DNA from: a virus
IMG/VR virus record: IMGVR_UViG_3300036820_000550
Span: 1 to 49,322 of that record
DNA length: 49,322 nt
Strand: one strand, 5' to 3'
Below the pieces are notes generated by a model. It ran no database searches. It was given only the letters and a program-made list of their open reading frames with translations, and was not told where the DNA came from. The position numbers and the translations under genes were made by a program. Shown in pieces: positions 5,132-32,816 of the stretch (positions within the stretch are counted from its first letter, which is position 1; each line of letters opens with the position of its first letter).

Positions 5132-6898
5132 GTGGACTCCCCCCTGAGCAAGGTGAAACTGGGGCTTGTCGAGAGCATTTCCGATCTTGAAGAAATGAAG
5201 CGATGGGCTGGCGAGCGCCGAGAAACGCCGTTGGGCGTGGACTGCGAATCCGAAGGCCTGGATATTGGCAGGCATAAAATCCGTCTCCTCCAGCTTGGGG
5301 ATATGCATACCGGCTGGGCCGTACCATTCGACCTCTGGGGCGGCGGCGCACTGGAAATACTACGATCATATGAAGGCGAATTCGTAGGTCATAACATCCC
5401 ATTCGACAACCGGTTTATCAAGAAGTGTGGCGGCTTCGAGCTACCGTGGCATAAGATCCACGACACTCTTATCCTCGGTGCTCTAGATGATCCGAGCCGG
5501 GCTCGAGGCCTGAAGCCGCTATCCGACCGCCTCATCGATCCGTATGCTAGCTCGGGAGAACAGACGCTCCACGACGGCATGCGCGAAAACGGCTGGGACT
5601 GGGGAACCGTACCGGTAGATTACACGCCGTACTGGGCGTACGGCGCGCTGGACGCGGTGCTGACCTGCCATCTCTGGAAGCAGCTCCACCCGCGGGTGAT
5701 GGCCCAGTGCCCAGATGCATACGACCTGGAGCGGGGAACCGCCCGCGTAGTCTCGCGGATGATGGAAACCGGCCTGCTTACCGACCAAGCTTACGTGGCC
5801 ACGGCCATCGCGGAACTGACGCAGAAGAGCGAAGAAATCCGAGTCTGGCTCAATCTAGCATATGGCATCACCACGCCGAATTCCAGTCCCCAGGTAGCGA
5901 GAGCCTTCACCGCTCTCGGATATGAGATCGACTCATTTACCACTACCGGTCAGCCCCGGATCGATAAGGAGACACTAGAGTTCATCGGAAAGAGTACAGA
6001 CGGACCTATCCGTGAGCTAGCGCGATCCGTCTATGCGGTCCGCCATACTGAGCGGATGATCACCAATTACCTGTCCAACTTCCAGGAAATGGCCGATCCA
6101 GACGGAGTAATCCGATGCCAGATCTGGACTCTGACCGCGAAAACCGGGCGCATGTCGGTAACCGAACCGGCTCTCCAGACGCTGCATCGAGACGACAAAG
6201 TAATTCGCGGTTCGTTCATTCCCAGGCCCGGATACGTATTCGTGAGCTGTGACTTTTCCCAGGTGGAAATGCGCATCTGCGCCTCACTGAGCGGCGATGA
6301 AGGCCTTATCAAGGCGTTCAAGGATGCGGATAATGGCGGGCCGGACTTCTATTCGGGGGTAGCTTCCGAGCTATTCGGAGAACTGGTATCAAGAGACGAC
6401 AAGCGTCGCCAGGACGTTAAAACGATGAGCCTGGCTAAGATCTACGGAGCCGGCGTGGCGACCATGGCGCGGAGCGTTGGGATGCCATACGATAAAGTAA
6501 AAGTCATCCACGATAACTTCAACAGCCGTTATCCCGGCCTGGAGCGGCTGGCCAGGAAAACAGCATCGGAAGCGTGGGAGCAGAAGCGCAACGGAAACCA
6601 GAGTGCGGTATTGCTCGCATCAGGACGCCGGCTGCCGGTCGATAAGGAGCATGCCAGTGTCAACTACCTCTGCCAGGGAACCGCGGCCGAGGTAATCAAA
6701 CGCGCCGGTCTGAACGTGGAAGCCGCCGGCCTCGGCAGCACGATGAGGTTGTTCATCCACGACGAGCTCCTCTGCGAAGTTCCAGCCGATCAAGCCGAAG
6801 AATACCGGAAAGCGATCGAGGAGACGATGACGGACCATTCCTTTGCCGTGCCATTGACATGCTCCGCGAAAATCCTCGAGAACCGGTGGGCTAAATGA
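5132..6898 (+). CDS. polA: DNA polymerase I (family A) with 3'-5' exonuclease
   Basis: 588 residues, GTG start. The exonuclease motifs are present: D37/E39 in GVDCESEG, GHNIPFDNRF and a C-terminal YGALDAV. The polymerase palm is intact: motif A CDFSQVEMR (D374), motif B RRQDVKTMSLAKIYGAG (K430) and motif C HDE (543-545). There is no 5' nuclease domain, as is usual in phage enzymes. The site equivalent to E. coli F762 is Leu434. Genomic DNA synthesis is the expected role. It is the first gene of an operon whose members overlap by 4 nt or more. Confidence 0.97.
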   Translation: MDSPLSKVKLGLVESISDLEEMKRWAGERRETPLGVDCESEGLDIGRHKIRLLQLGDMHTGWAVPFDLWGGGALEILRSYEGEFVGHNIPFDNRFIKKCGGFELPWHKIHDTLILGALDDPSRARGLKPLSDRLIDPYASSGEQTLHDGMRENGWDWGTVPVDYTPYWAYGALDAVLTCHLWKQLHPRVMAQCPDAYDLERGTARVVSRMMETGLLTDQAYVATAIAELTQKSEEIRVWLNLAYGITTPNSSPQVARAFTALGYEIDSFTTTGQPRIDKETLEFIGKSTDGPIRELARSVYAVRHTERMITNYLSNFQEMADPDGVIRCQIWTLTAKTGRMSVTEPALQTLHRDDKVIRGSFIPRPGYVFVSCDFSQVEMRICASLSGDEGLIKAFKDADNGGPDFYSGVASELFGELVSRDDKRRQDVKTMSLAKIYGAGVATMARSVGMPYDKVKVIHDNFNSRYPGLERLARKTASEAWEQKRNGNQSAVLLASGRRLPVDKEHASVNYLCQGTAAEVIKRAGLNVEAAGLGSTMRLFIHDELLCEVPADQAEEYRKAIEETMTDHSFAVPLTCSAKILENRWAK

Positions 6899-23586: not shown

Positions 23587-23660
23587 GGGCGGCTAGCTCA
23601 GCCTGGTAGAGCACTACGTTCGCAACGTAGGGGTCAGCGGTTCAAATCCGCTGCTGTCCA
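23587..23660 (+). tRNA. tRNA-Ala(CGC)
   Basis: Acceptor GGGCGGC/GCTGTCC (G-T pairs), anticodon loop TTCGCAA, T-arm TTCAAAT. Starts 2 nt after the terminator T run. Confidence 0.95.
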
Positions 23661-23776
23661 CGGAGCAATCGGTTTACACCGGATAACTCTGACGTATGGG
23701 TGCTAGTTTTCCGCGGCAAGATTAGCGTACCGCAACGGAGGAAAACCCCGTAAGGGGGCTGCTCACCAGTGAAGTG

Positions 23777-23856
23777 TGAAAGTTAGTGAATCTGGTAGGG
23801 TAACGGAAACAGCCGCCACCATGCGGACGAGGCCGGTTCGATTCCGGCATTTTCAT
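23777..23856 (+). tRNA. Non-canonical tRNA-like element, anticodon unreadable
   Basis: Acceptor TGAAAGT/ATTTTCA, a D-arm-like GTGA...TAAC and a perfect T-arm (GCCGG TTCGATT CCGGC) are present. The central part is about 6 nt too long, with CCGC/GCGG closing a 6-nt loop lacking U33. The ends extend into a pairing of 11 bp (23771-23781 with 23852-23862). The base after the discriminator is A, unlike all canonical tRNAs here. Either a decayed tRNA or a tRNA mimic. Confidence 0.35.
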
Positions 23857-23867
23857 ACTTCTTTTCT

Positions 23868-23940
23868 GGGGTTATAGCTCAGCTGGCAGAGCGCCTGCTT
23901 TGCAAGCAGGTGGTCCGGGGTTCGAATCCCCGTAACTCCA
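23868..23940 (+). tRNA. tRNA-Ala(TGC)
   Basis: Acceptor GGGGTTA/TAACTCC, loop TTTGCAA, T-loop TTCGAAT. All four arms pair normally. Confidence 0.97.
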
Positions 23941-24071
23941 CAGGTACCGCGTCCCGTGTAAAGCGGTAGCTACGGGTGCCGGGCAGTGGCTGTGCGGTTA
24001 ACCACCGCGCGGAGGTCGCCTGGCTTAGCCACGAGATCCCGGCTGGTTACCGGGTCTCGTGGTGAAATCAA

Positions 24072-24144
24072 GGCCCTGTCGTCTAGTCAGGCAGGATACC
24101 GCCCTCTCAAGGCGGCGACGCCGGTTCAAATCCGGTCGGGGCTA
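24072..24144 (+). tRNA. tRNA-Glu(CTC)
   Basis: Acceptor GGCCCTG/CGGGGCT (first pair G-T), D-stem GTCT/GGAT, loop CTCTCAA, T-loop TTCAAAT. Confidence 0.95.
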
Positions 24145-24154
24145 CTCCGCACAC

Positions 24155-24227
24155 CGGAACGTAGCGCAGTAGGCCGCGCGCCTGGTTTGGGACCAGGAGG
24201 ACGCCAGTTCGAGCCTGGCCGTTCCGA
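24155..24227 (+). tRNA. tRNA-Pro(TGG)
   Basis: Acceptor CGGAACG/CGTTCCG, loop TTTGGGA, T-loop TTCGAGC. One of three tRNA-Pro genes close together. Confidence 0.96.
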
Positions 24228-24310
24228 CGAGGGGTGAGATCCAGGAAGTGGCCAACCTGGCGGGACTGAGGTCCCGTGGTGTAAGCGGTAAGAGCACGCA
24301 CCCCATAAAG
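24228..24310 (+). other. Candidate permuted tRNA-like element (3' half before 5' half)
   Basis: In order: GGGTG (24232-24236), a 4-nt variable loop, a CCAGG/CCTGG stem (T-arm position), CGGGACT (24261-24267), 2 nt, GGTCCCG (24270-24276), TG, D-arm GTGT...GCAC, G, CACCC (24299-24303), then CATAAAG. Read as a circle, the acceptor (7 bp), D-stem (4 bp) and anticodon stem CACCC/GGGTG all pair. Weak points: the T-loop is 10 nt without TTCRA, and position 33 would be A. The anticodon could be TAA (Leu), one of the few missing from the array. Confidence 0.3.
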
Positions 24311-24406
24311 TTGTACCTCATCCGAGTGACACACCGTGAATGAGCTTATACGGGAGACAGGAGTGCCGGCTTGGCCAGCCGGTGATCTTTATCCGCGGTA
24401 TAGAGA

Positions 24407-24480
24407 CGGGTTGTGGCGCAGCTTGGCAGCGCGCCGCGTTCGGGACGCGGAGGCCCCCGGTTCAAATCCGGGCAGCCCGA
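24407..24480 (+). tRNA. tRNA-Pro(CGG)
   Basis: Acceptor CGGGTTG/CAGCCCG, loop TTCGGGA, T-loop TTCAAAT. Confidence 0.97.
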
Positions 24481-24563
24481 CTCTGAGGAGCTGCAAACTG
24501 GGATGAGATAAGCCCTGGCTATGTGCAGCGGTGAAAGTCCGTGCCAGTTCCTTAGTTTTTAAA

Positions 24564-24637
24564 CGGAGTGTGGCGCAGTCTGGCAGCGCGCGTGTCTGGG
24601 GGACACGAGGTCGCCGGTTCAACTCCGGCCATTCCGA
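24564..24637 (+). tRNA. tRNA-Pro(GGG)
   Basis: Acceptor CGGAGTG/CATTCCG, loop CTGGGGG, T-loop TTCAACT. The 80-nt spacer before it contains a possible pseudoknot (GCTGCA/TGCAGC with AACTGG/CCAGTT). Confidence 0.96.
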
Positions 24638-24639
24638 CA

Positions 24640-24778
24640 GGGTGCTGGGTGTGAAGGGGTAGGCTTGCAGCCTGTTAAGGACCGTCGCCCGGTTGACTGC
24701 ACACGCAGGGCCTATGGACTGAGGTGACTCCTGAGGGATCTCTGCGAAGAAGCCGTTCGATTCGGCTAGCACCCGCCA
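24640..24778 (+). tRNA. tRNA-Asn(GTT)-like gene with an apparent 62-nt insertion
   Basis: Perfect acceptor GGGTGCT/AGCACCC, perfect T-arm (AGCCG TTCGATT CGGCT), discriminator G and an encoded CCA (24776-24778). An anticodon loop CTGTTAA lies at 24672-24678. Removing 24680-24741 joins GCAGC...G to CTGC and makes a perfect 5-bp anticodon stem and a 5-nt variable loop. The D-arm does not pair well and a competing AGGCT/AGCCT hairpin exists. Far too short for a usual group I intron. A canonical tRNA-Asn(GTT) is present at 30470. Confidence 0.45.
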
Positions 24779-24791
24779 ACGTGGAGGGGAA

Positions 24792-25043
24792 ATGCTAGAC
24801 TGGCCCGACGACTGCCGTTGCCCTCCGATCAACGTCGGACATGAAGTATGGTGGAACCAGCGAGCATGGAGCGCTGGTTGCCAGCTTCACGGCGTGGGTA
24901 CGGAATACTTTCAGAAGCTCGAGAAGCTGCCATTCGGCTACGCTGATGAGCGGAATACTACCCGTGAGGAATATTTCGCTATCCTTGAAGAGCTCAAAGA
25001 GCTCGATCTCTCCGAAGAGCGAGAAGAAGACGATGATGACTGA
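24792..25043 (+). CDS. Hypothetical acidic protein inside the tRNA array
   Basis: 83 residues from ATG 24792 after GGAGGGG. The N-terminal half has CRCPP and several Trp residues; the C-terminal half is helical and very acidic, ending DLSEEREEDDDD. The stop codon directly abuts the first base of tRNA-Ala(GGC) at 25044. No family recognised. Confidence 0.7.
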   Translation: MLDWPDDCRCPPINVGHEVWWNQRAWSAGCQLHGVGTEYFQKLEKLPFGYADERNTTREEYFAILEELKELDLSEEREEDDDD

Positions 25044-25117
25044 GGGGCCATAGCTCAGCTCGGTAGAGCATCTGCATGGCATGCAGAGGGTCGCCGGTTC
25101 AAATCCGGCTGGTTCCA
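25044..25117 (+). tRNA. tRNA-Ala(GGC)
   Basis: Acceptor GGGGCCA/TGGTTCC, loop ATGGCAT, T-loop TTCAAAT. It begins immediately after the stop codon of the upstream gene. Confidence 0.95.
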
Positions 25118-25203
25118 CGGCGCCCGAGGGTGACTAAGCTGCAGTTCCGTAGTCTGGTACTGGTCGCTATGGCATAGGTCTGCAGGCCTCGGGCACTGAT
25201 CTT

Positions 25204-25277
25204 AGGAGTGTAGCTCAACTGGCTAGAGTCCCGGTCTCCAAAACCGGTGGTTGGGGGTTCGAATCCCTTCACTCCTG
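25204..25277 (+). tRNA. tRNA-Trp(CCA)
   Basis: Acceptor AGGAGTG/CACTCCT, loop CTCCAAA, discriminator G as expected for Trp. The candidate permuted tRNA starts at the next base. Confidence 0.97.
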
Positions 25278-25421
25278 CGGCGGTGGATGCGCGTTCAACT
25301 CGCGTCTGTCATTTGGGAGACCAGTACTGAAGCGGCTACGAGAGCTAGTACGCTTCGCGGAAAGCCGTAGAGCGCCAGTACCGGTCATGACGGTAGCTCA
25401 ATGGTAGAGCACCGCATAATC
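25278..25421 (+). tRNA. Candidate circularly permuted tRNA gene
   Basis: The 3' half comes first: GCGGT (25280-25284), GGAT, T-arm GCGCG TTCAACT CGCGT (25289-25305), CTGTCAT (25306-25312). A 74-nt folded linker follows, then the 5' half: ATGACGG (25387-25393), TA, D-arm GCTC...GAGC, ACCGC (25411-25415), ATAATC. As a circle, acceptor 7/7, D 4/4, T 5/5 and anticodon stem ACCGC/GCGGT 5/5 all pair (one or two wobbles). The anticodon depends on the unknown junction; AAT is the simplest reading. The following 95 nt fold into an 11-bp stem (25421-25431 with 25506-25516). Confidence 0.5.
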
Positions 25422-25519
25422 TTGGCTAGCCGAGGGTTAGGTTTCAGCCTTAGGTGAGGGTCGCAGGCATACCGGCACGTGGCGCTGCGGAGCCGGTAGC
25501 GAGTAGGCTAGCCAGGTAT

Positions 25520-25593
25520 GGTTCCATAGCTCAGGTGGAAGAGCGTCCGGTTGAAGCCCGGAAGGTTCGCTGGTTCGATCCCAGCTGGGACCA
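25520..25593 (+). tRNA. tRNA-Phe(GAA)
   Basis: Acceptor GGTTCCA/TGGGACC, loop TTGAAGC, T-loop TTCGATC. Confidence 0.96.
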
Positions 25594-25687
25594 CGACGCA
25601 AGCTGGGTAAGCGTACTAAAAAGACCAGTGCCCCAGAAGGGTGCCTGCCGGTAGGGTGAGCAGGCTAAAATAATACGCTCTACGCCC

Positions 25688-25738
25688 GGATCCTCCTTTA
25701 GCCGGAAAGGATTTCCCGTTCGATCCGGGAAGGATCCA
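25688..25738 (+). other. Acceptor/T-arm minihelix without anticodon arm (51 nt)
   Basis: Acceptor GGATCCT/AGGATCC, a single small hairpin CCTTT/AAAGG, a perfect T-arm TCCCG TTCGATC CGGGA, discriminator A followed by C. There is no room for an anticodon arm. It keeps every recognition feature of RNase P, RNase Z and the CCA-adding enzyme. Either a deletion remnant of a tRNA or a tRNA mimic. Both flanks are folded spacers. Confidence 0.45.
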
Positions 25739-25746
25739 CCCGTGGG

Positions 25747-25835
25747 CTGCCATCGTTTTCCTGTGCAGGCAGCATCTGGCCCGGCATGCCGCGGAGATGG
25801 CTTCGGCCGGGGAATAACCGCTCCTCCAGGAATAG
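25747..25835. other. Folded spacer with interlocking stems
   Basis: GCTGCC pairs with GGCAGC about 22 nt later, CCATC with a later GATGG across that stem, and CCCGGC with GCCGGG. The crossing pairs suggest a pseudoknotted RNA between the minihelix and tRNA-Gly(TCC). No ORF. Confidence 0.4.
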
Positions 25836-25855
25836 CACCGCTTCATCATTTCAAC

Positions 25856-25929
25856 GCCTCACTAGCTCAATGGTAGAGCTTCTGCTTTCCAAGCAGGTCA
25901 TGCCGGTTCGATTCCGGCGTGGGGCTCCA
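25856..25929 (+). tRNA. tRNA-Gly(TCC)
   Basis: Acceptor GCCTCAC/GTGGGGC, loop TTTCCAA, discriminator T at 25926 and encoded CCA 25927-25929. Confidence 0.97.
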
Positions 25930-25930
25930 T

Positions 25931-26004
25931 GCGCCGCTAGCTCAAGTGGTTAGAGCGCCAGACTCTTAATCTGGATGTTCGGGGTTCAAGTCCCTGGCGG
26001 CGCA
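25931..26004 (+). tRNA. tRNA-Lys(CTT)
   Basis: Acceptor GCGCCGC/GCGGCGC, loop CTCTTAA, T-loop TTCAAGT. A GTG codon follows one base after the discriminator. Confidence 0.97.
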
Positions 26005-26040
26005 CGTGATTGCTGAATGACAAGAAGGGAAGGAAATACC

Positions 26041-26247
26041 ATGGCGGAGGAGATCCGTCTGAAGTACAAATACCGTTGCACCAAGACCGGCAAGTCGAAC
26101 GCATCGCGTAATAACAACAATGGGCCGGCTAGGCACCGCGGCGAGACCGATAAGGTGAAGCTTGCGGCCGCTCAGTCCGCAACGAGGCAGAATCAGATGA
26201 TGCTTTATATGCTCGCCTCGGGTAGATTCAAGTGGGAGCGAGTTTAG
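26041..26247 (+). CDS. Small basic protein inside the tRNA array
   Basis: 68 residues from ATG 26041, preceded by AGAAGGGAAGG; an in-frame ATG at 26017 is possible. Lys/Arg/Asn-rich (TGKSNASRNNNNGPARHRGE), with a helical C-terminus. Possibly nucleic-acid binding. It ends 12 nt before tRNA-Leu(CAA). Confidence 0.7.
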   Translation: MAEEIRLKYKYRCTKTGKSNASRNNNNGPARHRGETDKVKLAAAQSATRQNQMMLYMLASGRFKWERV

Positions 26248-26259
26248 GCTCGATCCCGG

Positions 26260-26335
26260 ACCGGAGTGATAGGGAACTGGCATACCTCGCTACCTCAAAA
26301 GTAGTGGTTTACGGGTTCGACTCCCGTCTCCGGTA
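26260..26335 (+). tRNA. tRNA-Leu(CAA), short variable loop
   Basis: Acceptor ACCGGAG/CTCCGGT, anticodon stem GCTAC/GTAGT, loop CTCAAAA, T-arm ACGGG TTCGACT CCCGT. The variable region is only GGTTT, whereas bacterial tRNA-Leu normally has a long arm. The D-loop is enlarged. Confidence 0.85.
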
Positions 26336-26379
26336 CGGCTAAGTCGAGGGCTGCTTGATCCTCGGCTTAGCTATCTCGA

Positions 26380-26454
26380 TGCCCACTAGGAAAATCTGGC
26401 AACCCCGCCGGGCTCTGACCCCGGAGCTTCCTGGTTCGAGTCCAGGGTGGGCAG
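26380..26454 (+). tRNA. tRNA-Gln(CTG)
   Basis: Acceptor TGCCCAC/GTGGGCA, loop CTCTGAC, T-arm CCTGG TTCGAGT CCAGG, discriminator G. Confidence 0.95.
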
Positions 26455-26455
26455 C

Positions 26456-26590
26456 GAAGTGGTGGTAAGGAGAAGAATGCCGCCCTATCGACCGGTGAAT
26501 AAGCCGCACCGGCCGGTAAGAACGAGGCTCCTCTAAGGGACTCGGATCCGGTCTTGCTCGCAAGATAAGCCTATGAGCCGCCATCACTTC
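26456..26590. other. Folded spacer closed by a 10-bp stem
   Basis: GAAGTGGTGG (26456-26465) pairs with CCATCACTTC (26581-26590), one G-T pair. The 115 nt inside contain further short stems and no ORF. It fills the whole gap between two tRNAs. Confidence 0.5.
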
Positions 26591-26598
26591 TTCTTTCC

Positions 26599-26673
26599 GC
26601 CTCTGTAGCTCAGCTCGGATAGAGCACCGTCCTCGTAAGACGGGGGTCCGCGGTTCAAATCCGCGCGGAGGCT
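26599..26673 (+). tRNA. tRNA-Thr(CGT)
   Basis: Acceptor GCCTCTG/CGGAGGC, loop CTCGTAA, T-arm CGCGG TTCAAAT CCGCG. Confidence 0.97.
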
Positions 26674-26833
26674 CTGGGTTAGTATGTTACCCTAAAAAGG
26701 TAGAGCACCCTGTAATGGTGGGTAACGGACGACAACGCGAAGCCGTGAGTGGTGCTGATAAGTTGCTCACAACCTAAAAAGACGTACCGCATTCTAAGCC
26801 CCAGCTCTAGTGCTCTCAGGTGCTGGGACTTAT

Positions 26834-26918
26834 GCGCCCGTGGCGGAATGGCAGACGCGCAGCGTTGAGGTCGCTGTGCTCCGCGAGGGGCGTCCCGGTT
26901 CAAGTCCGGGCGGGCGCA
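26834..26918 (+). tRNA. tRNA-Leu(GAG)
   Basis: Acceptor GCGCCCG/CGGGCGC, loop TTGAGGT, a normal long variable arm, T-arm CCCGG TTCAAGT CCGGG. Confidence 0.97.
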
Positions 26919-26987
26919 CGCCGTGTCTGGCTGGTCACGGTGAGGGGATAAGTAGGGTCCGTGGCGAGTGCCAGCTCGCTACGGTAT

Positions 26988-27061
26988 GCCGCCTTAGCTC
27001 AGTTTGGCAGAGCAACCGCTTTGTAAGCGGTAGGTCACCCGTTCGAGGCGGGTAGGCGGCT
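26988..27061 (+). tRNA. tRNA-Thr(TGT)
   Basis: Acceptor GCCGCCT/AGGCGGC, loop TTTGTAA, T-arm ACCCG TTCGAGG CGGGT. Confidence 0.97.
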
Positions 27062-27076
27062 CGGCAGGTTTTTTGA

Positions 27077-27148
27077 TCCTCGCTGAGGTAATCGGCAACC
27101 GACTGGGTTTTGGTCCCGGTGTTCCAGGTTCGAATCCTGGGCGAGGAA
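27077..27148 (+). tRNA. tRNA-Gln(TTG)
   Basis: Acceptor TCCTCGC/GCGAGGA, loop TTTTGGT, T-arm CCAGG TTCGAAT CCTGG. Confidence 0.96.
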
Positions 27149-27199
27149 CGGTGCTTTTGTCCATGCTGCGTCATGCCCGGCCGGGAAATCCGCGGCTCA

Positions 27200-27305
27200 T
27201 CCTGGCGATTTTTGACCAGGCTCCATTGCGGCAGCGCCGAGCACCGCGAGGCGATCAGCAAGGCGCTCCTCGTCCTGGCGATCTTCGCCAGGCTCCATTG
27301 CGGCT
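27200..27305. repeat. Two direct copies of a hairpin-forming 33-mer
   Basis: Copies at 27200-27232 and 27273-27305 share TCCTGGCGAT and CCAGGCTCCATTGCGGC. The second forms a perfect 8-bp hairpin CCTGGCGA/TCGCCAGG, the first a weaker version. They lie in the 210-nt gap between tRNA-Gln(TTG) and tRNA-Thr(GGT), where a weak ORF is not convincing. Confidence 0.65.
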
Positions 27306-27360
27306 GCTGGACCGGGTAGCATTACCTGCTGCTCACCGAGCAGAAGGCACTAACACCTAA

Positions 27361-27435
27361 GCCTGGCTAGCTCTTAATTGGCAGAGCATCTCCATGGTAA
27401 GGAGAAGGTTATCGGTTCGAATCCGATGCCAGGCT
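27361..27435 (+). tRNA. tRNA-Thr(GGT)
   Basis: Acceptor GCCTGGC/GCCAGGC, loop ATGGTAA, T-arm ATCGG TTCGAAT CCGAT. The AGCNN array begins a few bases later. Confidence 0.96.
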
Positions 27436-27441
27436 CACTAA

Positions 27442-27718
27442 GCAAAAGCTCGAGCAAAGCCGAGCGCAGCTAAGCTAAGCCCAGCTGAGCATAGCATAGC
27501 AGAGCGCAGCTAAGTAAAGCACAGCACAGCAAAGCTCAGCTGAGCTAAGTAAAAGCACAGCAGAGCTGAGCATAGCAGAGCTGAGCATAGCTAAGCCCAG
27601 CTAAGCCCAGCGAAGCGAAGCGCAGCTCAGCACAGCACAGCTTAGCACAAGTACAGCCAAGCCTAGCCGAGCCGAGCCCAGCAGAGCTCAGCTGAGCGAA
27701 GCACAGCGAAGTCTGCCA
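27442..27718. repeat. AGCNN pentamer array (locus 2, longest)
   Basis: About 50 units of AGC followed by two variable bases keep 5-nt phase over long runs, with a few 1-nt slips and some AGTNN units. No coding potential, because the period is 5. It interrupts the tRNA array. The 125 nt after it (to 27846) hold nothing I recognise. Confidence 0.9.
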
Positions 27719-27846
27719 AAGAAGCTGATATAAACCGGGACCGGTCTGGCACCGTGGCCTGTCTCTGCTCGTCTCTACGAAGAAAGCTGACTTCCGCAGG
27801 AGACGGCAATAGCTGGCGTATTCAGCTGCGCTAGTACGGTGCGCAC

Positions 27847-27920
27847 GCGGACGTGGCGCAATTGGTAGCGCATCAGCTTCCCAAGCTGAGGGTTTGCGGG
27901 TTCGATCCCCGTCGTCCGCT
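27847..27920 (+). tRNA. tRNA-Gly(CCC)
   Basis: Acceptor GCGGACG/CGTCCGC, loop TTCCCAA, discriminator T as usual for Gly. Confidence 0.96.
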
Positions 27921-27984
27921 CAACCGGTGAATTGTGGTACCGTGATTCACCGGGGAAAGTCACTAGGGCAAATATGATACTCAT

Positions 27985-28058
27985 GCGGTTGTAGCTCAGT
28001 TGGTAGAGCGCTACCTTGCCAAGGTAGAGGTTCGCCGGTTCAAGTCCGGTCAGCCGCT
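27985..28058 (+). tRNA. tRNA-Gly(GCC)
   Basis: Acceptor GCGGTTG/CAGCCGC, loop TTGCCAA, discriminator T. Confidence 0.97.
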
Positions 28059-28147
28059 CGGTTCCTCGTACGTCCATACTACCGAACGCCTCCAGGGCCG
28101 AAAGGCAGCACAGGTAAGGTATAATTCGATATGCGGGGAACGCTTAA

Positions 28148-28229
28148 GGGCGAGTGGCGTAACTGGTAGCCGCGCTGGCCTCAGGAGCCAGTGTCTCACG
28201 ACGTAGGGGTTCGACTCCCCTCTTGCCCA
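28148..28229 (+). tRNA. tRNA-Leu(CAG)
   Basis: Acceptor GGGCGAG/CTTGCCC, loop CTCAGGA, long variable arm, T-arm AGGGG TTCGACT CCCCT. Confidence 0.95.
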
Positions 28230-28345
28230 CCCAGCAGGAAGCGCTTAAGCTAATACTCGACGTGGAAACAAATCCGGGTCCCGTGCTAGCGGACTCCCAT
28301 CTGCCAACAGGGTTGCTTTCTGCTGTTATAGTTGGATTAGATCCA

Positions 28346-28430
28346 GGGGCGGTCGCCTAGTCAGGCCCATGGCGCCACACTGCTAATGTGGTTGGGGCAA
28401 CCCTCGGGAGTTCAAATCTCCCCCGCTCCG
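28346..28430 (+). tRNA. tRNA-Ser(GCT)
   Basis: Acceptor GGGGCGG/CCGCTCC, loop CTGCTAA, long variable arm, discriminator G. A GTG start codon follows one base later. Confidence 0.96.
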
Positions 28431-28431
28431 C

Positions 28432-28473
28432 GTGACTACCAAAGAGAGGGAGCGTGGCTCCCGTACCGCCTGA
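28432..28473 (+). CDS. Possible 13-aa leader peptide after tRNA-Ser(GCT)
   Basis: GTG lies one base after the tRNA discriminator and opens 13 codons (VTTKERERGSRTA). These end in TGA, which overlaps the next ATG as TGATG. There is no ribosome-binding site, so it would be a near-leaderless start created by tRNA 3' processing. Speculative. Confidence 0.35.
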   Translation: MTTKERERGSRTA

Positions 28474-28625
28474 TGTGGCGGATCTGCTCCTGCTATAGGC
28501 CTCGGTGCCTATGCCGGAGAGCTTTCAACGATCCATACCTGGACTGTTTCGACTGCTGGGACGGGTACCACGTCTACGACAAACCGAACAACAAGATCAA
28601 GTGCCCGAAGTGTGACAAGAAGTAG
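28473..28625 (+). CDS. Small zinc-finger-like protein
   Basis: 50 residues from ATG 28473, which overlaps the stop of the 13-codon leader as TGATG. The longer frame reads through tRNA-Ser and is rejected. CSCYRPRCLC, then CFDC and CPKC, gives four Cys pairs for one or two zinc ions. The spacer 28626-28818 that follows has no gene but contains a perfect 16-nt palindrome at 28681-28696. Confidence 0.6.
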   Translation: MWRICSCYRPRCLCRRAFNDPYLDCFDCWDGYHVYDKPNNKIKCPKCDKK

Positions 28626-28818
28626 CTGGAACCAGTACGGGGAAGGTAGGCTTAGAAGCAGCCATCCTCTAAGGAGTGGGCCACGCGGCCGCGTGGTTGT
28701 ACCGAACAGGCCGAAGTACGTCAGAATATGATGCGCATTTCGTACGAGACGGAATCTTGTACGTCTGGTGGTTGCCTGCCGGTCCCTTTAGCGTAGTAGC
28801 ACACCCCGTATATTCAAA

Positions 28819-28903
28819 GGATCCTTCGCATAGTCTGGCCTAGTGCGCCGTCTTGGAAAGGCGGTAGGGGAAACCCTCGTGCGTTCGAATCGCACAGGAT
28901 CCG
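28819..28903 (+). tRNA. tRNA-Ser(GGA)
   Basis: Acceptor GGATCCT/AGGATCC, the same as the minihelix at 25688; loop TTGGAAA, long variable arm, discriminator G. Confidence 0.96.
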
Positions 28904-28953
28904 CTTTCACGAAGGTAGCCCGCTTCGGCTAGCCACCCCTCGTTTTTTACCAC

Positions 28954-29036
28954 GGTGGACTCGCATAGTGGCCTAGTGCACCTGTCTCGAAAACAGGAGA
29001 GGGAAACCTCCGCAGGTTCAAATCCTGCGTCCACCG
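28954..29036 (+). tRNA. tRNA-Ser(CGA)
   Basis: Acceptor GGTGGAC/GTCCACC, loop CTCGAAA, long variable arm, discriminator G. Confidence 0.97.
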
Positions 29037-29166
29037 CGGACTCTGGACACTTCGACCGTCAGAATCGGTCTTAGCCGCTAGAGTTGCTGATGGGAACCTA
29101 GCTCACTAACGGACGGGGAGCGAGCTAGCCTGCAGGTGAGGGTTTAAGCAGGCGTGATTTTACTTT

Positions 29167-29249
29167 GGCGGGGTCGCATAGCGGCCGAGTGCAGCTGCTT
29201 TGAAAGCAGCCGAGGGTGACCTCCGTGGGTTCAAATCCCACCCCCGCTG
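29167..29249 (+). tRNA. tRNA-Ser(TGA)
   Basis: Acceptor GGCGGGG/CCCCGCT, loop TTTGAAA, long variable arm, discriminator G. Confidence 0.96.
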
Positions 29250-29276
29250 CGTGATGGGAAGAAAAAAAGAGAGCAT

Positions 29277-29352
29277 AGGTCTGTAGCTCAGTCTGGTGAG
29301 AGCGCTTCCCTGATAAGGAAGAGGTTCGGTGGTTCAAGTCCACTCAGGCCTA
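29277..29352 (+). tRNA. tRNA-Ile(GAT)
   Basis: Acceptor AGGTCTG/CAGGCCT, loop CTGATAA, T-arm GGTGG TTCAAGT CCACT. Confidence 0.96.
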
Positions 29353-29411
29353 CATGGCGATGGCAGGACGCCAGGAGGTTGCAACTTCCCCCGTTGTTGC
29401 AAGACCTCTAA

Positions 29412-29445
29412 GGCCATACCGTCCGGCGGCCGCATCGGTATGGCC
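29412..29445. other. Perfect 10-bp hairpin in tRNA spacer
   Basis: GGCCATACCG (29412-29421) and CGGTATGGCC (29436-29445) pair perfectly around a 14-nt loop. No T run follows, so it is not a typical terminator. It lies 12 nt before tRNA-Met. Confidence 0.7.
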
Positions 29446-29456
29446 CCCTGCTACTT

Positions 29457-29530
29457 GGCGAGGTAGCTCAGCCTGGTAGAGCGCCACACTCATAATGTGG
29501 AGCGCACGGGTTCAAATCCCGTCCCCGCTA
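29457..29530 (+). tRNA. tRNA-Met(CAT), elongator type
   Basis: Acceptor GGCGAGG/CCCCGCT with one A-C mismatch, loop CTCATAA. It lacks the initiator-type first-pair mismatch. An Ile2 identity (lysidine) cannot be excluded, but a tRNA-Ile(TAT) is present at 29710. Confidence 0.93.
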
Positions 29531-29543
29531 CAGATCTGTACAT

Positions 29544-29699
29544 GCGGTCCCGGGCTAGGGATAACTCATGTGGTGTCATAGGCTGCCGGTAACACTCCCG
29601 CGGAGGCGCCAGCGGTGAAGAACGGCTAAGCCACATGAGAACGGATATGCTGAGCTGGACACGGCTCACGTCACGCGGGTTCGACTCCCGCCTACCGCT
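29544..29699 (+). other. tRNA 3'-half-like element with inserted folded RNA
   Basis: A perfect T-arm GCGGG TTCGACT CCCGC (29675-29691), then CTACCGC and T followed by C, forms a normal tRNA 3' end. A matching 5' acceptor is only partial (GCGGT at 29544 or GCGGTGA at 29612). A 9-bp perfect stem CTCATGTGG/CCACATGAG (29565-29573 with 29631-29639) encloses a 57-nt folded insert. Possibly a disrupted or intron-bearing tRNA. Confidence 0.35.
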
Positions 29700-29709
29700 C
29701 TACACTCAC

Positions 29710-29786
29710 AGGCCGGTAACTCACGTGGTAAGAGTACCTGCCTTATAAGCAGGAAGTAGTGGGATCAAGACCCACCCGGCCTACCA
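29710..29786 (+). tRNA. tRNA-Ile(TAT)
   Basis: Acceptor AGGCCGG/CCGGCCT, loop CTTATAA, discriminator A at 29783 and encoded CCA. The T-loop is ATCAAGA instead of TTCRANN. It reads AUA directly, without lysidine modification of a CAT anticodon. Confidence 0.9.
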
Positions 29787-29796
29787 GGGAGAAAAC

Positions 29797-29841
29797 ATGC
29801 GAAAACAGATCTTCACCACCGCGATAATGAAGGGCCACTAG
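29797..29841 (+). CDS. Possible 14-aa peptide ending inside tRNA-Lys
   Basis: ATG after CAGGGAGA encodes MRKQIFTTAIMKGH. The stop TAG is formed by the conserved T8-A9-G10 of tRNA-Lys(TTT). Good ribosome-binding site but very short. Confidence 0.3.
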   Translation: MRKQIFTTAIMKGH

Positions 29842-29902
29842 CTCAACGCAGAGCATCGGACTTTTAATCCGCTGGTTCCGGGTTCAAATCCCGGGTGGCC
29901 CA
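29832..29902 (+). tRNA. tRNA-Lys(TTT)
   Basis: Acceptor GGGCCAC/GTGGCCC, short D-loop, loop CTTTTAA, T-arm CCGGG TTCAAAT CCCGG. Confidence 0.97.
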
Positions 29903-29903
29903 C

Positions 29904-30128
29904 GTGAGGACTCACGGCAAGTGGAGCACGTACAACGCCGGCTGCCACTGCACCGAGTGCAGAACGGTCAGTGCGGAAAGAGCCAGGACTAGAAGGGACA
30001 GCGGTAGACCGCCGGTCCATGGTCTGTCCGGCTACATGAACTACCACTGCAAGTGCGAGATCTGCCGAGCTGCTGGTTCGGTCTGGAACGCCGCGAACTA
30101 CCGGGCTCGGAAAAGTAGACTGATTTAG
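29904..30128 (+). CDS. Small Cys-pair protein (HGxxxxYxxGCxCxxC type)
   Basis: 74 residues from GTG 29904, one base after the tRNA-Lys discriminator; a GTG at 29895 lies inside the tRNA. THGKWSTYNAGCHCTECR and HGLSGYMNYHCKCEICRAA are two copies of a short zinc-binding repeat seen in many actinophage small proteins. It is possibly a nucleic-acid-binding adapter. No ribosome-binding site is visible, so its mRNA may be leaderless after tRNA processing. Confidence 0.75.
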   Translation: MRTHGKWSTYNAGCHCTECRTVSAERARTRRDSGRPPVHGLSGYMNYHCKCEICRAAGSVWNAANYRARKSRLI

Positions 30129-30129
30129 A

Positions 30130-30203
30130 GCGCCGTTAGCTCAAGCGGATAGAGCGACTGCCTTCTAAGCAGCAGGTTCTGGGTTCGAGTCCCGGGCGGC
30201 GTA
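30130..30203 (+). tRNA. tRNA-Arg(TCT)
   Basis: Acceptor GCGCCGT/GCGGCGT, loop CTTCTAA, T-arm CTGGG TTCGAGT CCCGG. Confidence 0.95.
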
Positions 30204-30235
30204 CAGACGTGGTATAGTTCTAGTGTTAGATGTTA

Positions 30236-30308
30236 GGCCCCATGGTAGATGATGGTAGTACACCACCCTTTCAAGGTGGGGAACCGGGTTCCAGTCCCGG
30301 TGGGGCCA
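30236..30308 (+). tRNA. tRNA-Glu(TTC)
   Basis: Acceptor GGCCCCA/TGGGGCC, loop CTTTCAA, T-loop TTCCAGT. Confidence 0.96.
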
Positions 30309-30382
30309 CGCGGGGTAGTGGAGTTAGGTACCATTCTGGGCTCATAATCCAGAGGTCGTCGGTTCAAATCCGGCCCCCGCTA
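30309..30382 (+). tRNA. tRNA-Met(CAT), initiator-like
   Basis: It starts CGCGGGG and ends CCCCGCTA, so the first pair is a C-T mismatch, as in initiator tRNAs (C-A mismatch in E. coli). Anticodon stem CTGGG/TCCAG, loop CTCATAA. It starts directly after the discriminator of tRNA-Glu, so the usual C after that discriminator is its own first base. Confidence 0.85.
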
Positions 30383-30469
30383 CTAGAGGTGGCTCGGCTT
30401 TTCGATAGAGCCGAGTGCGTAGGGCTGCGCGTGGGTTGCTGCTTACCACGGCCTCAGAAGCAGCTTTAA

Positions 30470-30542
30470 TCCGGTGTAGCTCAATTGGCAGAGCGTCCGC
30501 CTGTTAAGCGGAAGCGTGACAGTTCAAGTCTGTCCGCCGGAG
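30470..30542 (+). tRNA. tRNA-Asn(GTT)
   Basis: Acceptor TCCGGTG/CGCCGGA, loop CTGTTAA, T-arm GACAG TTCAAGT CTGTC, discriminator G. Confidence 0.97.
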
Positions 30543-30585
30543 CGGGGAAGGATGGTTCTGGCGAGTCATCCTTTCACCATCTAGA

Positions 30586-30661
30586 GGGGTCGTAGCTCAG
30601 CTCGGCCTAGAGCGCTGCCCTGTCAAGGCAGAGGTCACGGGTTCAAATCCCGCCGATCCCG
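30586..30661 (+). tRNA. tRNA-Asp(GTC)
   Basis: Acceptor GGGGTCG/CGATCCC, loop CTGTCAA, discriminator G. Confidence 0.96.
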
Positions 30662-30728
30662 CTAGTATGATGAGTAGTCTAGCCAGACCACTCCAGGAGA
30701 CACGGCTGTACCTGGCATCATACTGCCT

Positions 30729-30802
30729 GGCCGGTTAGCTCAGCCTGGGAGAGCACTTCCCTGACACGGAGGGGGCCGGGGGTTCAAACCCCTCACTGGC
30801 CA
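30729..30802 (+). tRNA. tRNA-Val(GAC)
   Basis: Acceptor GGCCGGT/ACTGGCC, loop CTGACAC, T-loop TTCAAAC. Confidence 0.95.
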
Positions 30803-30804
30803 CG

Positions 30805-30900
30805 ATGAAAGACTACATCATCACCATCGTTATCGGTAGCATCGTTGTAATTGCTTTGTTTGCTCTGCTAGCTCTCGTCATGTACGAACTGCTAGCCTAG
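30805..30900 (+). CDS. 31-aa single-pass membrane peptide
   Basis: ATG lies 2 nt after the tRNA-Val discriminator. The product is MKDYI followed by a hydrophobic helix of about 20 residues (IVIGSIVVIALFALLALVMY) and a short tail. The stop shares its last base with the first base of tRNA-Arg(ACG). No ribosome-binding site is visible. A membrane micro-protein is plausible. Confidence 0.6.
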   Translation: MKDYIITIVIGSIVVIALFALLALVMYELLA

Positions 30901-30972
30901 CGCCCGTAGCTCAACGGATAGAGTGCCTGACTACGGATCAGGAGGCTGGGGGTTCGAGTCCCTCCGGGTGCG
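30900..30972 (+). tRNA. tRNA-Arg(ACG)
   Basis: Acceptor GCGCCCG/CGGGTGC, loop CTACGGA, discriminator G. A34 presumably needs host TadA editing to inosine. Confidence 0.96.
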
Positions 30973-30973
30973 C

Positions 30974-31291
30974 GTGAAGGATGAAAAGGAAGAGAAAAAC
31001 CAGCCGGTCATGTACAGCGTGGAAGCTCACGAGAACACGGGCATCAACATCTACGATCACGGCCGTATCGAGGGGGTGAAATTCATCCTCAATAAGCCGA
31101 TCCCGCTCCCCGGAGGCGGCGTAGCCGAGATCATTGATTTCAGTGGCGTGATGACCGCCATCGAAGGTGAAGATGGCCTTCTTACTCTCGAAGCAGCGAT
31201 CGCCGCATTCCTGGCTCCAGGACTCGATGAACGATCCAAGCCGGTCAGCCTGGAAGAAGAAAAACGAGTCCGAGGTCAGCAGTACAACTAG
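30974..31291 (+). CDS. Hypothetical protein inside the tRNA array
   Basis: 105 residues from GTG 30974, one base after the tRNA-Arg discriminator; ATG 31010 is an alternative. The sequence (INIYDHGRIEGVKFILNKPIPLPGGGVAEIIDFSG) is beta-rich, followed by an acidic helix. No family recognised. It ends 6 nt before tRNA-Val(CAC). Confidence 0.7.
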   Translation: MKDEKEEKNQPVMYSVEAHENTGINIYDHGRIEGVKFILNKPIPLPGGGVAEIIDFSGVMTAIEGEDGLLTLEAAIAAFLAPGLDERSKPVSLEEEKRVRGQQYN

Positions 31292-31297
31292 ATAAGA

Positions 31298-31369
31298 GGG
31301 TGATTGGCTCAGCGGAAGAGCGCCTCGTCCACACCGAGGAAGTCACTGGTTCGATCCCAGTATCGCCCA
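31298..31369 (+). tRNA. tRNA-Val(CAC)
   Basis: Acceptor GGGTGAT/ATCGCCC, stem CCTCG/CGAGG, loop TCCACAC. Position 33 is C instead of the near-universal T. Confidence 0.93.
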
Positions 31370-31370
31370 C

Positions 31371-31853
31371 ATGATGGAAAAGGAAGAGAAGGACGATACA
31401 TTCACTCAACTCGGTGAAATATGCTCCTGTGGCCACCTATTCGACGGCCACATCGTGATGGCATATGACGACCCGCTTGATGGCGGGCTCATGCTATGCC
31501 AGGAGCTGGAGACCTGCGAATGCGTCAAAACCTGGTCTCTACAGGGCCGGGAAACCACCGTTAACACGGTGATGCCTCCGGGCCACGTGATTGCCGAGTA
31601 CCGGCAGCAGCTGATCGTACAGCGGCAGGCGGAAGAGGTGATAGATGGAACGGCGACATGGACTGGTAGCTCAGTAGGGAGAGCACCGGCTTTACAAGCC
31701 GGGGGTCGTGGGTTCGAGCCCCTCCCGGTCCACGGTGGATGTAGCTCAGTCAGGTCAGAGCGCCGGGTCGTGGCCCCGGAGGCCGCGGGTTCAAATCTCG
31801 TCATTCACCCCAAGGGCAGTTGGAGCAGTCTGGCCGACCTCACCTGTCTGTAA
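31371..31853 (+). CDS. Hypothetical protein whose frame runs into tRNA genes
   Basis: ATG lies one base after the tRNA-Val(CAC) discriminator. About 95 residues are protein-like: ICSCGHLFDGH, CQELETCECVKTW, then a Gln-rich helix. The frame then continues without a stop through tRNA-Val(TAC) and tRNA-His and ends at the TAA in the anticodon loop of tRNA-Tyr. Processing of those tRNAs would leave a non-stop message near codon 96. The functional C-terminus is therefore unclear. Confidence 0.55.
   Translation: MMEKEEKDDTFTQLGEICSCGHLFDGHIVMAYDDPLDGGLMLCQELETCECVKTWSLQGRETTVNTVMPPGHVIAEYRQQLIVQRQAEEVIDGTATWTGSSVGRAPALQAGGRGFEPLPVHGGCSSVRSERRVVAPEAAGSNLVIHPKGSWSSLADLTCL
31660..31732 (+). tRNA. tRNA-Val(TAC)
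   Basis: Acceptor GGACTGG/CCGGTCC, loop TTTACAA, T-stem with one T-T mismatch, T-loop TTCGAGC. Confidence 0.93.
31734..31812 (+). tRNA. tRNA-His(GTG)
   Basis: Extra 5' G (31734) opposite C73, the His hallmark. Acceptor GTGGATG/CATTCAC, loop TCGTGGC with C at position 33, encoded CCA 31810-31812. Confidence 0.93.
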
Positions 31854-31894
31854 AACAGGCATCCCACACGGTGGTTCAAATCCACCACTGCCCA
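31814..31894 (+). tRNA. tRNA-Tyr(GTA)
   Basis: Acceptor GGGCAGT/ACTGCCC, loop CTGTAAA, long variable region, T-arm GGTGG TTCAAAT CCACC. Confidence 0.95.
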
Positions 31895-31895
31895 C

Positions 31896-32024
31896 GTGCA
31901 AAACGATGAGAATGTCCTAGAGACTTTCGCGGAACGGGTGAAAGAGAATCTGCGCTGGCTCAAGGAAAACAGCGAGCGCTACGGGAAGCGTCACGCCTTC
32001 CATGATGCTGCTGACCGGGCTTAG
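31896..32024 (+). CDS. 42-aa helical protein
   Basis: GTG lies one base after the tRNA-Tyr discriminator. The product VQNDENVLETFAERVKENLR and onward is a single amphipathic, charged helix with good codon character. No ribosome-binding site is visible. A second overlapping frame, ATG 32002 to TAA 32085 (27 aa), bridges to the next gene and may couple translation. Confidence 0.55.
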   Translation: MQNDENVLETFAERVKENLRWLKENSERYGKRHAFHDAADRA

Positions 32025-32077
32025 CTATCAGCAAATCGAAGATCTTGGCGGTATCGCGGAGGAATTAGAGGGGAACG

Positions 32078-32425
32078 ATGATTAAGAACTGGAAGAGAAG
32101 GATTATCTTCATCGCTCCGCAGTGGCGAGCCAGTGACTTCAAGAATAACTGGTGGCGAGTCTGGTATAAGCACGCTTGCGATGAGTATGGGAACTGCTCA
32201 CAGCAGCTCATCTTTGCGCTACTCGGTGGCGTCGAGGTCTTCCCGTTTCCGCACTTCCAGGAAGATATCAAACTCCCGGAACCCGGCGAGAATGACTGGG
32301 TAGACCGGGTGTACTGGAAAGAAATCATCGGTGGCGGAGTACTTACCAATGAGGAACGCGCTCGTATCGACCAGCGAAAAGTATCGATGCCCGGTAGCTC
32401 AGTGGATAGAGCACCTGCCTCCTAA
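32078..32425 (+). CDS. Hypothetical protein ending inside tRNA-Arg(CCT)
   Basis: ATG 32078 after GAGGGGAACG. About 103 residues are protein-like, with many aromatic residues (WRVWYKHACDEYGNC, FPFPHF, WVDRVYWKE). The last 12 codons and the TAA lie inside tRNA-Arg(CCT), the stop being in its anticodon loop CTCCTAA. No stop occurs before the tRNA, so the message is cut without a stop if the tRNA is processed. No family recognised. Confidence 0.65.
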   Translation: MIKNWKRRIIFIAPQWRASDFKNNWWRVWYKHACDEYGNCSQQLIFALLGGVEVFPFPHFQEDIKLPEPGENDWVDRVYWKEIIGGGVLTNEERARIDQRKVSMPGSSVDRAPAS

Positions 32426-32460
32426 GCAGGGGGTCCCGCGTTCAAGTCGCGGTCGGGCAG
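32388..32460 (+). tRNA. tRNA-Arg(CCT)
   Basis: Acceptor TGCCCGG/TCGGGCA, loop CTCCTAA, T-arm CCGCG TTCAAGT CGCGG, discriminator G. Confidence 0.96.
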
Positions 32461-32463
32461 CTT

Positions 32464-32561
32464 GCAGTTCACCTTTCTTCAAAGCCCTCCCCAGGCAGTT
32501 CCAGTAACGATACCGGGCTGCCTCTCCCAAAGCAACACGCCGAGAAGTAAAGGTGAACTGC
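32464..32561. repeat. 13-bp perfect inverted repeat enclosing 72 nt
   Basis: GCAGTTCACCTTT (32464-32476) and AAAGGTGAACTGC (32549-32561) pair perfectly. The inside contains AGGCAG/CTGCCT. It fills the gap between two tRNA-Arg genes. A folded RNA or a small mobile-element remnant. Confidence 0.75.
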
Positions 32562-32566
32562 TTAAA

Positions 32567-32639
32567 GCCTTCGTGGCGCAGCGGATAGCGCACCGGGTTC
32601 CGAACCCGGGGGTCAGGGGTTCGAGCCCCCTCGAAGGCG
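32567..32639 (+). tRNA. tRNA-Arg(CCG)
   Basis: Acceptor GCCTTCG/CGAAGGC, loop TTCCGAA, discriminator G. Confidence 0.97.
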
Positions 32640-32727
32640 CGGAAGAGAGTTCGCTGCCAGTTGGCACAGGATTCTTACTGCAAAGAGGTGCAACGCCCTC
32701 GACTCCAGATCAGCGAGCTTTTTTCAC

Positions 32728-32798
32728 GGCAGTATGGCCGAGTAGCTAGGCACGCGCCTGCAAAGCGCGGTACACCGGTTCAATTCCGGTTACTGCCT
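32728..32798 (+). tRNA. tRNA-Cys(GCA)
   Basis: Acceptor GGCAGTA/TACTGCC, loop CTGCAAA, discriminator T as expected for Cys. Last tRNA of the array. Confidence 0.96.
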
Positions 32799-32816
32799 CT
32801 TTTGAGCTAAGACCTG

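Follow-up and report, generated by a model that had tools for sequence, protein, structure and literature searches.

Within the tRNA gene array of a phage fragment, the 3' half of a tRNA precedes its own 5' half, which raises the question of whether this arrangement represents a tRNA gene whose transcript has to be cut and joined or a tRNA-like RNA of a different kind. The window analysed here, i.e., the whole stretch of DNA under study, comprises the entire 49,322-base record IMGVR_UViG_3300036820_000550, a linear phage fragment. Overall, 43 tRNA genes covering all 20 amino acids were identified with ARAGORN at 23587-32799, and the permuted element locates in the spacer between the genes for tRNA-Trp and tRNA-Phe (Table 1). 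The reading preferred here, with a probability of about 0.64, is that the element is a tRNA mimic with the permuted topology of the YrlA tRNA-like module, residing inside a phage tRNA array.

Anatomy of the permuted element

At 25279-25416, a tRNA 3' half (anticodon-stem strand, T-arm and acceptor strand) lies upstream of its own 5' half. Upon swapping the order, the acceptor strands pair in 7 of 7 positions (ATGACGG/CTGTCAT), the T-stem in 5 of 5, the D-stem in 4 of 4 and the anticodon stem in four. The circularly permuted tRNA topology is real, and all parts named by the earlier note were found in place: the two halves in reversed order, the nested linker hairpin of about 74 nt and, behind the 5' half, a folded segment of about 95 nt with its 11-bp closure. 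Its statement that all four stems pair on swapping held for the acceptor, T- and D-stems; the register given there for the anticodon stem (ACCGC/GCGGT) gives way to a better one, in which positions 27-30/40-43 (CCGC/GCGG; standard numbering) are paired and followed by an A31.G39 mismatch, with A26 and a 5-nt V-loop. This register also yields the Levitt pair A15-U48, and the A31.G39 mismatch is common to the window copy and the relative L063. All rejoined versions (8/8) were accepted as tRNA by ARAGORN, the anticodons differing between versions. The linker hairpin is closed by GACC (25319-25322) and GGTC (25383-25386), plus GTACTG/CAGTAC. In the minimum free energy (MFE) structure it abuts the acceptor stem, capping the acceptor end, and the linker occupies the position of the GNRA loop in other phage elements.

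Table 1 Features of the permuted element, its neighbours and related loci
Feature	Position or locus	Strand	Basis or remark
tRNA-Trp(CCA)	25204-25278	+	directly 5' of the element; ARAGORN and Rfam
Anticodon-like stem, 3' strand GGCGG (positions 39-43)	25279-25283	+	pairs 4/5 with 25412-25416
V-loop TGGAT, 5 nt	25284-25288	+	sequence; U48 can form Levitt pair with A15
T-arm GCGCG-TTCAACT-CGCGT	25289-25305	+	5/5 pairs; T-loop motif
Acceptor-like stem, 3' strand CTGTCAT	25306-25312	+	7/7 with 25387-25393
Linker, 74 nt: TTGGGA, then hairpin	25313-25386	+	MFE structure
Acceptor-like stem, 5' strand ATGACGG	25387-25393	+	7/7 pairing
T8 A9, D-arm GCTC-AATGGTA-GAGC, A26	25394-25411	+	4/4 D-stem, GG motif; D-arm 25396-25410
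Anticodon-like stem, 5' strand CCGCA (27-31)	25412-25416	+	pairs with 25279-25283
Separate folded module, closed by 11-bp helix 25421-25431/25506-25516	25421-25516	+	folding; ends 3 nt before tRNA-Phe
tRNA-Phe(GAA)	25520-25594	+	directly 3' of the spacer; ARAGORN and Rfam
Conserved tRNA-Pro/tRNA-Pro spacer module GGATGAGAYAAGCC...GGTGAAAGTCCGTG	24482-24556; L010 8095-8151; L124 175-249		three phages
Second-class permuted mimics	L040, L012, L134, L154, L161, L163, L179, L180, L194, L209		CAGCAA...CTGTT signature

A scan of both window strands that demanded a 7/7 acceptor stem and a 5/5 anticodon stem returned this site only. As a null for the pairing, 5,423 D-arms from other phage loci were used, among which full complementarity to CTGTCAT (7/7) occurs in 0.11 % and to GCGG (4/4) in 3.5 %. 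Given the 49 T/D pairs in range that the window contains, about 0.002 such matches are expected by chance. The folding energy is unremarkable (z of -1.6 for the 241-nt spacer, -1.9 for 25279-25416 and -2.6 with the linker swapped for a tetraloop), and the case therefore rests on pairing and recurrence.

Recurrence of the topology in other phages

Comparison of the locus with phages by blastn matched the tRNAs only and left the element itself unmatched, and AAA-ATPase and helicase scans of viral contigs yielded no relatives by protein. The route to relatives was an 18-mer of a 23S rRNA-like piece in another spacer of the array, by which 119 viral contigs were found. On these loci a permuted-tRNA finder gave matches at L010 and at the L065/L073/L083 group, 0.13 matches being expected from random pairing. 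For a covariance model, 32 normal tRNAs were rearranged into permuted order; this model scored L010, L063, L065/L073/L083, L040/L080 and L012/L066 at 53-63 bits, as compared to at most about 48 bits for tandem normal tRNAs; the window copy was not recovered by it as one full-length match. The custom covariance model R1 is good for short linkers and poor for the 74-nt linker of the window.

The tRNA arrays at L010 (record G001, 166 kb) and L063 (record G007, 158 kb) are ordered similarly to that of the window, and both contain the same permuted topology in a different sequence, with acceptor strands CCGGCCA/TGGCTGG and CGCATCC/GGGTGCG, respectively. At L063, tRNA-Ala and tRNA-Pro are separated by 76 nt that the element fills completely, most gaps in this array measuring 0-5 nt, and folding of this element to its MFE gives the permuted cloverleaf. 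Upstream of the L010 element lies an additional degenerate 5' half that pairs badly. In the alignment of the window copy, L063 and L010, 96.8 % of the cells are paired and 9 of the 21 pairs are changed on both sides, compensatory differences of the kind for which the earlier note had proposed to search related phages; since L063 and L010 were found by searches demanding the fold, their pairing is partly selected and this count is weakened. The same level was attained in none of 500 shuffles, and slid versions reached 37-52 %. This array-embedded type comprises these three members only, which would be homologous judging from their similar array neighbourhood only. Locus L044, with a weak A/T anticodon stem, was not counted as a permuted tRNA. 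A spacer module between two tRNA-Pro genes is common to the window, L010 and a third record (G002, 130 kb); a strict scan of the latter detected no permuted element.

The topology extends to further phages. A pattern composed of a T-arm, ten free bases, GNRA, seven free bases and TAGCTCA, in which no complementarity was asked for, produced 101 matches in viral contigs, and in 74 of these the 7-nt strands around the GNRA tetraloop are fully complementary. Over all loci, orphan T- and D-arms amount to 112 cases of 7/7 pairing versus 0.4 expected, a count in which related contigs enter separately and many loci had been fetched via the GNRA pattern. The acceptor stem is closed by GCAA in L040, CUUG in L012 and UUCG in L041, and a permuted module sealed in this way is known from the tRNA-like part of bacterial Y RNA. 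In L065, L073, L115, L150 and L224, NCCA follows the acceptor strand and a few bases precede the 5' strand. The best non-tRNA match in Rfam at L012, L040, L175, L010, L063 and L065 is YrlA, with 31-39 bits (L010, 32.7; L063, 31.6), below the cut-off. An Rsr/TROVE protein is encoded in all tested phages (7/7) of a class with the basal stem GTTACTTC or close variants. A second class of permuted mimics displays CAGCAA or a variant before the basal stem and mostly CTGTT after it (Table 1), and TROVE was detected in none of 12 records of these phages. Likewise, no TROVE gene was found in the 49-kb window fragment, G001, G002 and G007, records that may themselves be fragments. In the phage carrying L063, a second YrlA-like element (L227, 8662-8769; 38.2 bits, with capped CGGCTCC/GGAGCCG) lies a short way downstream of the array.

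Nature, possible action and origin of the element

The proposal of the earlier note that the transcript must be cut and joined to yield a tRNA was not supported: a usable anticodon loop is missing, there is no room for a bulge-helix-bulge (BHB) motif, and a hairpin caps the acceptor stem. A Y32-U33-R37 anticodon loop is given by no junction or register in the window copy, L063 or L010 (3/3 members). No BHB motif was found at the junction, where the downstream strand pairs within its own module, and because the 3' half starts right at the end of tRNA-Trp, the upstream strand for a BHB-like processing helix is missing. No splicing endonuclease or ligase was found in the 49-kb fragment, and RtcB was found neither in this fragment nor in G007; a search with PF09511 was uninformative, as the control genomes gave no signal either. 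A genuine permuted tRNA gene, the transcript of which is joined at the anticodon loop by RtcB or Rnl and becomes a decoding tRNA once RNase P and 3' processing have removed the linker, is accordingly an unlikely reading. The cloverleaf completed on swapping, the NCCA behind the acceptor strand in the five loci mentioned above and an RtcB homologue in the relative G001, which keeps a ligation route thinkable, speak for it; in addition to the points already given, it is opposed by an array that already serves all 20 amino acids and by the 4-nt loops that often close the acceptor end of such elements in other phages. The RtcB homologue of G001 (G001:C1:132758-134827) forms one 760-aa frame in which about 900 bases separate the first 50 profile positions from the remainder, pointing to an intein or an inserted domain.

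Less probable still is a self-splicing (permuted group I) or ribozyme-processed tRNA, with the flanking modules acting as intron halves or HDV-like theta ribozymes. The halves are indeed flanked by folded modules, and theta ribozymes are known beside phage tRNAs (PMC10879173); against this, neither group I nor HDV-like nor any other ribozyme families were matched in Rfam searches with E up to 10, and the 3' half abuts tRNA-Trp, leaving no preceding 3' intron half. For the self-splicing route of joining considered in the earlier note, no intron family was matched at this threshold, and neither was an HDV-like theta ribozyme family matched at the tRNA 3' end with E up to 10, by models that could miss short variants. 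Two-piece (permuted) tmRNA resembles the window element in having the acceptor-strand piece before the 5' piece and in requiring no ligation, but the window differs by its canonical D-arm, by G3-C70 instead of G3-U70 and by having neither a tag reading frame nor a pseudoknot chain; ARAGORN calls no tmRNA, and this identity was rejected. A match to the THF-II riboswitch that spans the T-arm and the linker (18.2 bits versus a cut-off of 41, E of 0.26) was judged to be due to chance, because the T-loop supplies half of it and the relatives lack it.

The red algal and archaeal permuted tRNA genes share with the window the leading 3' half, the intervening linker and the cloverleaf formed on swapping (PMC3978253). 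Unlike these, the window element has no BHB motif, no canonical anticodon loop and a hairpin-capped acceptor end, and belongs to a phage of a bacterium. Closest in architecture is the bacterial Y RNA YrlA (RF02553), described by Chen et al. 2014 and Wang et al. 2018 according to the passages on it in PMC7790460 and PMC11472068. A circular permutation brings its crystal structure (6CU1) into superposition with tRNA (PMC11472068). Rsr and PNPase bind YrlA, DusA and TruB modify it (PMC8394870), and its tRNA-like domain has been proposed as an inhibitor of, or competitor for, anticodon nuclease (PMC7790460). Order and pairing of the permuted module in the Rfam consensus (anticodon-like strand, T-arm, closed acceptor-like stem, D-arm, anticodon-like strand) are those of the window element, and phages carry both. 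The window copy differs from YrlA by the 74-nt hairpin in place of a short cap, by its position between tRNA genes and by the missing basal stem with the Rsr-binding site, for tRNA-Trp lies upstream and the downstream 95 nt are self-closed; moreover, no TROVE gene was seen in the window or in the phages with similar arrays. With this and a score of only 18.4 bits in a wrong register against Rfam YrlA (gathering cut-off, 69), the element is termed a Y-type tRNA mimic rather than a member of YrlA. Sharing the permuted topology of both families but having neither the BHB motif and anticodon loop of permuted tRNA genes nor the basal stem and Rfam score of YrlA, it is placed in neither of them. Phage Y RNA/Rsr systems (PMC7824862; candidate Y RNAs of a Listeria phage, PMC12282133) also combine a phage-encoded tRNA mimic with nearby tRNA genes; they encode a Ro-like protein, which the window group, as far as seen, does not.

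As a Y-type mimic, the element would have its 5' end freed by 3' processing of tRNA-Trp, and the spacer RNA would be released at its 3' end by RNase P acting at the 5' end of tRNA-Phe. T- and D-arms are predicted to build a tRNA elbow that engages tRNA-binding proteins; with the acceptor end capped and the chain ends lying in the anticodon stem, the RNA would be neither charged nor decoded. The least certain step is the action on tRNA-binding proteins, either as a scaffold, by analogy to other systems where YrlA connects Rsr with PNPase, or as a decoy that draws off tRNA-directed nucleases or tRNA-end sensors of the host. A phage whose tRNA genes number more than 40 stands to lose much to anticodon nucleases. 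A possible, still tentative variant unites the array-embedded and the GNRA-capped basal-stem mimics into a class independent of Ro/Rsr that resembles broken tRNA. The window copy, L063 and L010 would then sit flush in arrays and be released by processing of the neighbouring tRNAs, the other members having an acceptor stem capped by GNRA and the CAGCAA...CTGTT signature in their basal stem. Their likeness to a tRNA broken in the anticodon loop may serve to titrate anticodon nucleases, toxins or sensors of tRNA fragments of the host.

The mimic probably originated when a tRNA was duplicated in tandem and the outer halves were lost. The NCCA and extra bases in L065, L073, L115, L150 and L224 resemble a place where two tandem tRNA genes meet, and such a duplication explains both these NCCA remnants and the extra 5' half of L010; a review offers this model for other permuted RNAs as well (PMC3978253). 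The duplication alone, with one copy's 3' half and the following copy's 5' half as functionless chance survivors, provides order and 7/7 pairing for free, and the degenerate 5' half in L010 as well as other degenerate tRNA-like pieces in the window array fit such dead remains. That the element is nothing else appears rather improbable: the 7/7 acceptor pairing is kept in three phages of differing sequence, L063 keeps its pairing as the sole content of a 76-nt gap in a compact array, and dozens of phages show the same topology.

Under the preferred reading as a Y-type tRNA mimic, a permuted tRNA in a phage without splicing endonuclease is accounted for, as a mimic needs no splicing. Y RNAs would thereby extend to phage tRNA arrays and to phages without a detected Ro-like protein, with tandem tRNA genes suggested as a source of such mimics. 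Tools searching for permuted tRNAs will often meet these elements in phage genomes, and the idea of the Y RNA tRNA-like domain as a tRNA-nuclease decoy becomes testable in phage infection.

Further RNA-like modules in the tRNA array

Spacers of the array are often single folded modules with their own 5' and 3' ends pairing (up to 13 bp at 32462-32566), and the real end pairs of the non-coding spacers (23662-32727) outperform swapped ends (permutation p < 5e-5). The few candidates for H-type pseudoknots in array spacers (24490-24549, 25461-25498 and the linker) are overall not above shuffles, and therefore no pseudoknot is claimed. By eye, further tRNA-like pieces with matching acceptor strands and a T-arm were noticed at 25689-25738, 24641-24775, 29617-29702 and 23779-23857; all four are devoid of a normal D- or anticodon arm, and the 50-nt one has a single extra hairpin. 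Imperfect pentamer repeats of the form AGCNN extend over about 300 bases of an array spacer at 27437-27740. Outside the array, the phage encodes a peptidyl-tRNA hydrolase (PTH2) at 1306-1728.

The 23S rRNA-like spacer piece (28642-28686) is, according to Rfam, a copy of helix 43 of the GTPase-associated centre and contains GGCTTAGAAGCAGCCATC, as in E. coli 1062-1079. Its 18-mer occurs in at least 119 viral contigs (L005-L123), 86 of the 119 having tRNA genes within 3 kb, and the likeness of these loci to 23S rRNA is mostly limited to about 30-50 nt with varying stem bases. The piece is also present, unannotated, in pf16 and other isolate phages. It appears to be an rRNA mimic that is widespread among phages, with L11 or translation factors as possible binding partners; a literature search found no paper on a phage mimic of the 23S GTPase centre. 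In L065, a ROOL RNA (5801-6394; 324 bits) lies beside the permuted element and the rRNA mimic. Finally, the window array harbours a look-alike of the small SRP RNA (4.5S) at 28055-28152 (RF00169, 37.8 bits versus a cut-off of 40), which is full length and has the conserved tetraloop region.
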